Shown here: positions 34,056 through 35,417 of the stretch, in pieces
How the letters are laid out: every line of letters starts with the position of its first letter
Position numbering within the stretch: position 1 is the first letter of the stretch
Source of the DNA: Pseudomonadota bacterium
Lineage (GTDB): Bacteria; Pseudomonadota; Gammaproteobacteria; Burkholderiales; Methylophilaceae
Direction of reading: 5' to 3'
DNA length: 64,000 nucleotides
Assembly: GCA_029556915.1 (NCBI GenBank)
Contig: JAKQIT010000091.1
Coordinates: forward strand, 62,001 to 126,000
The notes under the pieces: generated by a model
Databases searched by the model: none
Told to the model about the DNA's origin: nothing
What the model saw: only the letters and a program-made list of their open reading frames with translations
Program-made: the position numbers and the translations under genes

Positions 34056-35237
34056 TTATTTCAATAGTGCCAAATCGGCCTTCAAATCTTCCACATGTTC
34101 CAAACCTACCGCAATTCTAACCAGACTATCTTTAATGCCCGCTTCTGCGCGCGCTTCGGCTGAAACGCGACTGTGCGTAGTTGTGGCTGGGTGCGTGATG
34201 GTACTTTTCGCATCCCCCAAATTAGCGGTAATTGAAATTAACTTAGTCGCGTCAATCAATGCCCACGCCGCCTCTTGCTCAGTTTGGCCTGCTTTGGTTT
34301 TTACTTCAAAACTCACAATACCACCGCCACTGAGTTGCTGCTTCATCGCCAAGGCGTGTTGTGGGTGAGACGCCAAACCAGGGTAATACACACGCGCCAC
34401 TTGCGGCTGCGCTTCTAACCAAGTGGCAAGCTCAAGCGCACGTTTTGAATGGGCTTCCATGCGAACATGTAAAGTTTCTAACCCTTTTAAAAACACCCAT
34501 GCGTTAAACGCGCTCATGGTCACGCCTGCGGTGCGCAAAAAACCATACACCGGCTCCATCAAGACTTTTCTACCCAACACCGCGCCACCTAAGCATCTGC
34601 CCTGCCCGTCAATATATTTTGTTGCGGAATGAATAATAATATCTGCGCCCAAATCTAATGGGCGCTGAATGGCAGGTGTACAAAAGCAATTATCCACCAC
34701 CAAATGTGCGCCTGCACGATGTGCAATATCTGCCAGCGCTTGAATATCGCACACTTCTGTAAGCGGATTGGATGGCGTTTCTACAAAAAACAATTTGGTT
34801 TTTGCTGTCACTGCTGTTTGCCACGCGTTCACATCAGTAAGTGAAACAAATGTTACCTCTAAGCCCCAACGTTTTAAAATATTACTAAACAACTGTACAG
34901 TCGTGCCAAAAATACTGCGCGAAGCTACCACATGGTCACCCGCACTACATAAAGCCATGACACAAGCTAAAATCGCTGACATACCGCTAGATGTCGCCAC
35001 GCATTGCTCTGCACCTTCTAAGGCGGCCAATTTATTTTGAAATACGGTCACGGTAGGGTTGGTAAAACGTGAATAAATATTACCCGGCTCAGTACCGCCA
35101 AAACGAGCAGCAGCTTGCGCGGCGCTGGTAAAACGAAAGCTCGAGTTTAAAAATAAGGCCTCAGAATTCTCACCATAAGGTGTCGCTTCGCTGCCAGCAC
35201 GCACGGCTAAAGTTTCTGGATAGTATTGGTTTGTCAT
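34056..35237 (-). CDS. metZ: O-succinylhomoserine sulfhydrylase MetZ
   Basis: 393 residues, Cys/Met metabolism PLP enzyme. YSRFTNPTV, SSGMSAILA, and the PLP-lysine motif HSATKYIDGQGRCLGG are intact. It makes homocysteine directly from O-succinylhomoserine and sulfide. Position downstream of purF is the standard betaproteobacterial location for metZ, which decides it against metB or metC. Expression appears to be controlled by the SAM-II-like riboswitch and terminator directly upstream. Confidence 0.95.
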   Translation of the reverse strand: MTNQYYPETLAVRAGSEATPYGENSEALFLNSSFRFTSAAQAAARFGGTEPGNIYSRFTNPTVTVFQNKLAALEGAEQCVATSSGMSAILACVMALCSAGDHVVASRSIFGTTVQLFSNILKRWGLEVTFVSLTDVNAWQTAVTAKTKLFFVETPSNPLTEVCDIQALADIAHRAGAHLVVDNCFCTPAIQRPLDLGADIIIHSATKYIDGQGRCLGGAVLGRKVLMEPVYGFLRTAGVTMSAFNAWVFLKGLETLHVRMEAHSKRALELATWLEAQPQVARVYYPGLASHPQHALAMKQQLSGGGIVSFEVKTKAGQTEQEAAWALIDATKLISITANLGDAKSTITHPATTTHSRVSAEARAEAGIKDSLVRIAVGLEHVEDLKADLALLK

Positions 35238-35262: not shown

Positions 35263-35302
35263 AAAAAACCCGTAATAGCGAATTAGCTAAAACGGGTTTT
35301 TT
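35263..35302 (-). terminator. Riboswitch-controlled terminator before metZ
   Basis: On the minus strand stem AAAAAACCCGT / ACGGGTTTTTT with an 18-nt loop, ending 25 bases before the metZ ATG. The sequence TTTAGCT at 35285-35291 overlaps its loop side and is complementary to AGCTAAA (35313-35319) at the 3' end of the aptamer, giving a competing antiterminator pairing. Confidence 0.88.
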
Positions 35303-35310
35303 GTTAACTC

Positions 35311-35383
35311 GCTTTAGCTGTATTTATTATGCGCCCGCAAGCTGAGAAGACCTTGTTTAAGTTAAGTCACTCAAATCAGCGCA
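35311..35383 (-). promoter_or_regulatory. SAM-II-type riboswitch aptamer upstream of metZ
   Basis: Minus strand: P1 strands TGCGC (35379-35383) and GCGCA (35330-35334); conserved TGATTTG (35372-35378); an inserted small hairpin GAG.GAC / GTC..CTC in the first loop; CTTGC; then AATAAATACAGCTAAAG (35312-35328). This order and wording match the SAM-II fold (GCGCUGAUUU ... GCAAGCGCG ... GAUAAAUGUAGCUAAA in a well-studied example). SAM binding would hold AGCTAAA in the pseudoknot and let the terminator form. Covariance scoring was not possible here. Confidence 0.82.
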
Positions 35384-35388
35384 ACTTC

Positions 35389-35417
35389 ATGTTATGCCTA
35401 TTAGGCTTTGAGGTCAA
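35389..35417 (-). promoter_or_regulatory. Sigma-70 promoter of metZ
   Basis: On the minus strand TTGACC, 17-bp spacer, TAACAT. The predicted start falls at the first bases of the SAM-II aptamer stem, consistent with a leader RNA that begins with the riboswitch. Confidence 0.75.

Follow-up and report, generated by a model that had tools for sequence, protein, structure and literature searches.

SAM-II riboswitches (Rfam RF00521, SAM_alpha) are the closest described relatives of the element reported here, and published accounts place them in more than one proteobacterial lineage. A Bordetella SAM-II appears in a figure legend of Corbino 2005 (PMC1273637), SAM-II elements with terminators were described in alpha- and betaproteobacteria by Barrick 2007 (PMC2258182), and the SAM-II of S. 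meliloti metZ is predicted to act via a terminator (PMC9373788). PMC3764141 describes which residues make up the triples of the SAM pocket in the 2QWY structure. Leyn 2014 (PMC4239095) found SAM_alpha in no groups but Rhizobiales and Rhodobacterales; from 34 metX and metZ leaders the study described a further, new element, metXZ, and left its ligand open. Another candidate, Bp2_Cand287_SIPHT, was reported to precede methionine genes in most genomes, its neighbors including purF, metZ, and metX, and a cis-acting role in methionine metabolism was proposed for it (Khoo 2012, PMC3521395). Finally, SAM-II long loops (RF01726) are tabulated for Bacteroidetes and marine samples (PMC2864571).

The locus considered here lies on the minus strand of the window, by which we mean the whole 64,000-nucleotide stretch of DNA analyzed, and immediately precedes metZ (34056..35237), the gene that would be under its control. 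The metZ product is an O-succinylhomoserine sulfhydrylase (NCBIfam NF006003, 694.9 bits against a cut-off of 522), and its closest named relatives among the best 80 matches listed belong to Methylotenera, Methylophilus, and other Methylophilaceae, so that the window presumably comes from this family, in keeping with a betaproteobacterial host. We hold with high confidence that the metZ leader is a SAM-II-type SAM riboswitch working as a transcriptional OFF switch; SAM as its ligand, the OFF direction of control, and the role of its additional hairpin, P3, are what we infer from the features described below.

Read on the minus strand, the leader begins with a −35 box, TTGACC (35412..35417), recognized from the sequence and from family copies, and, after a 17-nt spacer, a −10 box, TAACAT (35389..35394), so placed that transcription would be expected to start a few nucleotides 5′ of P1. 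The P1 5′ strand UGCGCU (35378..35383) pairs with GGCGCA (35330..35335), and the loop thereby closed opens with the L1 core GAUUU (35373..35377; GAUUUG at 35377-35372), which is conserved within and beyond the class and which we take to be positions 8-12 of 2QWY. A lineage-specific insert of 29 nt (35344..35372), which forms hairpin P3, GAG.GAC...GUC..CUC, then separates L1 from the 5′ strand of P2, AGCUUGC (35337..35343, with CUUGC at 35341-35337). Downstream of P1, L3 (UAAUAAAUACA, 35319..35329), assigned from the sequence and the joint alignment described below, leads into the P2 3′ strand GCUAAAGC with a possible outer P2 strand, GAG (35308..35318); by sequence reading, AAUAAAUACAGCUAAAG extends down to 35312. 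Antiterminator strand A, AGCUAAAGCG (35310..35319), overlaps the P2 3′ strand, and antiterminator strand B, CGUUUUAGCU (35285..35294), overlaps the 5′ arm of an intrinsic terminator, AAAAAACCCGU...ACGGGUUUUUU with six U (35263..35302), whose end lies 25 nt from the metZ ATG (35237). The preliminary description had named the promoter, the aptamer stem, TGATTTG, CTTGC, the extra hairpin in the first loop, the terminator, and its 25-bp distance from metZ, and all of these are present where it put them; the complementarity it noticed between the aptamer tail and the terminator loop proved longer than claimed, with 10 contiguous pairs, one of them G-U. The 138-nt leader folds better than 200 of 200 shuffles (z −3.6). 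In the family, 50 of 87 matched rows, two of which (L020 and L033) are not leaders, carry a strict −35/−10 pattern, and 33 of the remaining 37 retain TTGAC.

With SAM-II (RF00521; S. meliloti metZ, A. tumefaciens metA) the leader shares P1, an H-type P2, GAUUUG, UUGC, and GCUAAA, as well as a promoter directly 5′ of P1 and a terminator ahead of a methionine gene. It differs in the 29-nt P3 insert, in scoring below the gathering cut-off, and, by eye, in an outer P2 that is shorter than in many GC-rich SAM-II copies beyond the class. The leader is SAM-II-like in every structural feature tested and misses only Rfam's numerical cut-off. Since betaproteobacterial SAM-II elements with terminators were in print by 2007, it is a variant rather than a new class. 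The earlier statement that SAM-II is mainly alphaproteobacterial likewise needs qualification, given those published copies and the 36 of 200 Burkholderiales genomes in which SAM_alpha exceeds its cut-off.

The window contains no match to any Rfam family at or above the gathering score of that family. When 701 bases were scanned, SAM_alpha matched the window copy over the correct interval and strand at 17.3 bits (E 0.24) against a cut-off of 36, so the SAM-II covariance test fails when taken alone, and the SAM-V model gives no match at E ≤ 10. The SAM_alpha match is the best of 13 genome-wide at E ≤ 10, but it is no proof, since such weak matches also occur in 14 of 14 control genomes at that threshold. 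The preliminary description had regarded the lack of a significant covariance score as evidence against its reading; of the two models it named, SAM-II falls in the right place under its cut-off and SAM-V is silent, and with Rfam's model that argument misfires at 17.3 bits, probably because of the insert together with divergence from the Rfam seed. Identity with SAM-II long loops, which are alike in having enlarged loops (judged by name alone, with a P3-like hairpin possible there), was rejected, as RF01726 has no match in the window or, at E ≤ 1, in 20 family loci.

Scores of SAM_alpha across those 20 family loci suggest that the insert is probably one reason for the low score and divergence another. 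At E ≤ 1 the model returns a row in 12 loci: 36.9 bits for L149, which has a 6-nt insert and is the only one over the cut-off, 25 to 32 bits for inserts of 7 to 19 nt, and 20 to 22 bits for inserts of 30 to 42 nt. A rule by which longer inserts lower the Rfam score is not clean and was dropped, as the divergent L164 reaches 21.2 bits with an insert of merely 5 nt, and L161, also with 5 nt, has no row. The eight loci lacking a row at E ≤ 1 have inserts of 5 to 37 nt and include, besides L161, L115 and L135 (17 nt) and L123 (19 nt).

A covariance model drawn from outside the family recognizes the element readily. This model, R1, comprises 30 elements (26 first and four second copies) from 29 loci in other Burkholderiales families, with the window excluded, and its E-values are rough because its calibration was short. 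It replaced an exact pattern, TGATTTGA..GCTTGC..GCTAAAG, which was found in three of 274 genomes of the class, the window's own included, and was too strict because other aligned betaproteobacterial copies read CGATTT. On the window copy, R1 scores 43.6 bits (E 2.1e-11), the next match being 9.6 bits. Of 25 Rfam-recognized SAM-II loci that lie beyond the window's class and are presumably from Alphaproteobacteria, it also finds 23 at E ≤ 0.1 (22 at E ≤ 3e-4). In the family, R1 matches 86 of the 90 metZ leaders examined (E ≤ 0.01), the four missed being L119, L146, L148, and L162; these leaders were drawn from 99 genomes with a metZ match, and a row internal to metZ (L022:1585-1631) was left out of the count. 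Of 80 loci with names, not all of which include much sequence upstream, R1 matches 73 at E ≤ 0.001, with L203 cut short and L202 weak. Among 200 Burkholderiales genomes, SAM_alpha occurs in 91 at E ≤ 0.01, 36 of them over the Rfam cut-off, and R1 in 154 at E ≤ 0.001, a number that takes in 29 genomes that supplied R1; the comparison of 154 with 36 points to many Burkholderiales copies being overlooked by the Rfam model for SAM-II. Together with the covariation of P1 and P2, these matches uphold the original assignment to the SAM-II type.

That covariation was assessed in a joint alignment of 58 sequences from the window, its family, other Burkholderiales, and copies beyond the class, which contains many R1 training elements and was fitted to R1 and hence to P1. 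In this alignment 99.7% of the P1 cells are paired, and four of the five P1 pairs change on both sides, counts that lean towards P1 because the alignment was fitted to it. In the family alone P1 is paired in 99.5%, with one-sided changes only relative to the commonest pair and none on both sides; it varies at its inner end (UG 34, UA 20, CG 19) and at the next pair (UG 4). Pseudoknot P2, which is absent from the model, is paired in 85.7% of the joint alignment. Its inner four pairs are invariant in the 52 rows with letters. The outer pairs 29-115 and 30-114, formed in 31 of 40 and 38 of 52 rows, occur as six standard pair types apiece, and pairing is lost in 25 of 52 rows at 33-112 and in 14 of 52 at 34-111. 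The covariation score of 0.247, against 0.098 for shuffles, was equaled in none of 500 shuffles and fell to at most 0.086 after slides of 1-3 columns; pairs changed on both sides were equaled in 66 of 500 shuffles and further pair types in 14 of 500. Rows with long inserts are gapped in the columns of the P2 5′ strand and were excluded for P2, among them the window row, where this strand is displaced by the insert; the P2 pairs of the window copy can be seen by eye.

Gene context in related genomes is of the kind expected for a SAM sensor, in view of the metX, metK, metH, metN-like, and metZ-like neighbors. Ten proteins encoded downstream of the element in other genomes were compared with family models: metX, metK, a member of the cystathionine gamma-synthase family, and a threonine ammonia-lyase exceed their family cut-offs, two are metH, incomplete at the locus end, two are MetN-like ATPases below the MetN cut-off, and two short ORFs have no family match. 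By eye, metZ-like and additional metK ORFs also lie downstream in related genomes. In the window, likewise, the element stands upstream of a methionine gene, metZ, with a plausible expression platform between them.

The alternative that survives best, though we consider it quite unlikely, is that the betaproteobacterial metX/metZ leader is a SAM-II relative that has kept the fold and shifted its ligand, for example to SAH or methionine. The literature search yielded zero ligand data for the betaproteobacterial copies, and Leyn 2014, as noted, left the ligand of metXZ open. One metZ leader of the family, L129:327-407, reads GCAAAA for GCTAAA. It is the sole exception among the 86 family aptamers, and its change would hit the U that we take to be U44, thought to face the SAM adenine. 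Against a shifted ligand, GATTT, TTGC, and GCTAAA are all intact in the other 85, and the pocket letters GAUUU, UUGC, and GCUAA(A) are present in the window copy, where every pocket residue of 2QWY can be found if we assume the numbering from which we mapped them. Moreover, one family copy and 36 of 200 genomes of the order exceed the Rfam SAM-II cut-off.

Under a SAM-II mechanism, the transcript would begin directly 5′ of P1, and P1 (UGCGCU/GGCGCA) would close a loop containing L1 (GAUUUG) and hairpin P3. With SAM bound, the tail GCUAAAGC would pair with AGCUUGC in the P1 loop to form P2, with L1 in the P2 groove; while the tail is so held, the terminator at 35302-35263 could form and metZ would be silenced. 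When SAM is absent, the tail AGCUAAAGCG would instead pair with CGUUUUAGCU of the emerging terminator 5′ arm, and metZ would be transcribed. The SAM-bound P2 and the antiterminator are predicted to be mutually exclusive because AGCUAAAGCG belongs both to the P2 3′ strand and to the antiterminator. A leader with an altered CGUUUUAGC, in which the antiterminator is broken and the terminator kept, would be expected to terminate constitutively.

The terminator and antiterminator had been described as exclusive folds, and they are so in the sequence and in folding of the nascent RNA. When the RNA is taken to start at 35388 and is lengthened 4 nt at a time, with pseudoknots outside the model, P1, P3, and the 10-bp antiterminator make up the best fold at 104-116 nt, and the terminator prevails from 120 nt. 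The full-length minimum-energy fold, again with pseudoknots outside the model, breaks P1 and pairs AGCUUGC with GCGAGUU, which counts against the aptamer. Across the family, complementarity of at least 8 bp for the antiterminator occurs in 74 of 80 leaders and is missing in six, 67 of the 80 reach p ≤ 0.05 against shuffles, and all 80 have a run of at least five T within 75 nt. Seven of the 87 matched rows were left out of this count after failing the P1 check, of which L161, L163, L164, L167, and L168 are terminator-less copies and L020 and L033 are the rows that are not leaders. In 32 elements of other Burkholderiales, the 8-bp antiterminator was found in six (three at p ≤ 0.05) and the T run in 22. 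The expression wiring thus differs between lineages, given an antiterminator in 74 of 80 family leaders and six of 32 in other Burkholderiales.

Variation in the expression platform is also visible within the family. In genus g15, with genomes near 1.3 Mb, five of nine leaders (the five terminator-less copies just named) are compact and, by eye, devoid of a terminator, and in these a Shine-Dalgarno-like CTGAGGA adjoins GCTAAA. They probably control translation, so that members of one family apparently differ in platform, a transcriptional one having given way to a translational one. In L093, L100, and L106, the 5′ P2 strand UCAGCUUGC may act as an antiterminator with GCAAGCUGA; the terminator loop of these three and of L099 contains GCAAGCTGA or GCGAGCTGA, a 9-bp complement of UCAGCUUGC, and a different antiterminator wiring is possible there.

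A second alternative, which we judge very improbable, is that the locus holds no riboswitch and is either a terminator free of regulation or, as RF02424 (Bp2_287) implies, a gene for a small RNA. RF02424 does match the window at 35277-35347, on the strand opposite metZ, with 20.6 bits (E 0.023) against a cut-off of 70, and a terminated leader may persist as a small RNA (cf. S. meliloti RZ, PMC9373788). In a set of 200 genomes taken to be Burkholderiales, the model matches 64 at E ≤ 0.01, one of them over the cut-off. At its best 30 loci (L079-L108), however, a GATTT..TTGC..GCTAAA core lies opposite the match strand in 30 of 30, and a genuine sRNA family was rejected on that basis; at L082, L089, and L095 the pattern caught a second tandem copy and R1 caught the copy beneath the RF02424 match, which in L082 reads AATTT. 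The promoter, the terminator U-run, and the gene in the window are all on the riboswitch strand, and the pseudoknot and antiterminator are conserved. The metZ leader resembles Bp2_287 in its type of locus, ahead of methionine genes, and departs from it in that the Rfam model sits on the opposite strand at all 30 loci. Bp2_287 in Rfam is very probably an antisense reading of the betaproteobacterial SAM-II leader, which is new as far as the searched literature goes, and the RF02424 entry may need correction.

Tandem SAM-II-like copies were seen at several loci, namely L108 (1533-1591 and 1630-1688), L101 (1564-1621 and 1376-1449), L082 (1549-1605 and 1415-1473), genomes G629 and G587 (L089, L095), L074, and L078. 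By eye, a terminator-like hairpin lies 3′ of the first copy in L108, L101, L074, and L078. In L082, L089, and L095 the second copy is ahead of a short ORF (MFDCYLDE...).

That the leader could be a SAM-V riboswitch, which has pocket residues in common with SAM-II (PMC2704228), is hardly credible and was rejected, as the SAM-V model is silent at E ≤ 10 in the 701-base scan and SAM-V, as described in the same paper, is without the final 3′ pairing element, the counterpart of which here is the outer P2 pairs.

Returning to the SAM-II reading, the betaproteobacterial metXZ element is very probably the same riboswitch, judging from genes, lineage, and anatomy. It shares the genes, the lineage (three Methylophilales metZ leaders), and a pseudoknot with terminator, and it differs in that region 3 has no partner in the published pairing model, which joins region 1 to 4 and region 2 to 6 (PMC4239095). 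Our literature search, with thin coverage of subscription journals, found no paper equating metXZ with SAM-II, and Leyn 2014 was the sole result for metXZ together with RNA. Equating the two would give a published orphan element a ligand hypothesis.

The feature that sets the Methylophilaceae leaders apart is the insert. The segment from GATTT to AGCTTGC spans 5 to 42 nt in 58 distinct forms among 85 family leaders, and 72 of the 85 leaders (49 of the 58 forms) have inserts of 14 nt or more with GAG at the start and CTC at the end; other inserts covary at their ends, for example GAAAT...ATTTC in L145. P3 alone in the window copy folds no better than shuffles (p 0.287), single inserts rarely outdo their own shuffles, and the case for P3 therefore relies on a between-group test, in which inserts of at least 19 nt were used with one representative per cluster. 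When halves were permuted among the 13 insert clusters, equal stability was reached in one of 20000 permutations and equal cross pairs in none of 20000. Much of the P3 energy comes from a few strong-stem clusters; the native mean is no better than chimeras in clusters 11 and 12 and hardly better in clusters 8 and 10. On this between-group evidence, Methylophilaceae carry a lineage-specific P3 at the L1/P2 turn, new as far as the searched literature shows. Since P3 is missing in compact copies, both in the family and elsewhere in Burkholderiales, it was most simply gained within Methylophilaceae.

Insertions were also seen elsewhere. In L073:1449-1525 (G309, another family of the class), the L1/P2 turn of a SAM-II-like copy is likewise interrupted, by an insert unrelated to P3, which suggests that this turn took insertions more than once. 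L079, L086, L105, L107, and L101:1376-1449 have an insert that is hairpin-like by eye in L3 and not at the L1/P2 turn.

The GAG and CTC of the insert and the GAG of the tail occur together in 43 of 58 distinct insert-tail pairs, a further six GAG...CTC pairs having been misscored at an earlier GCTAAA, and CTC thus has two possible partners. CUC would pair with either the P3 GAG or the tail GAG (outer P2), and the tail may leave for the antiterminator. A tentative and rather doubtful extension of our reading is that the metZ leaders of Methylophilaceae are a SAM-II subclass of their own, with P3 at the far end of the pseudoknot helix and sharing one strand with it, a three-way exchange among P3, the outer P2, and the antiterminator, and a regulatory P3. 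If this were true, such an exchange would serve to adjust the response to SAM or make it sharper, and P3 would be regulatory rather than a neutral insert. The series of inserts from 5 to 42 nt within a single family offers a natural experiment in which a small pseudoknot aptamer acquires a new domain.
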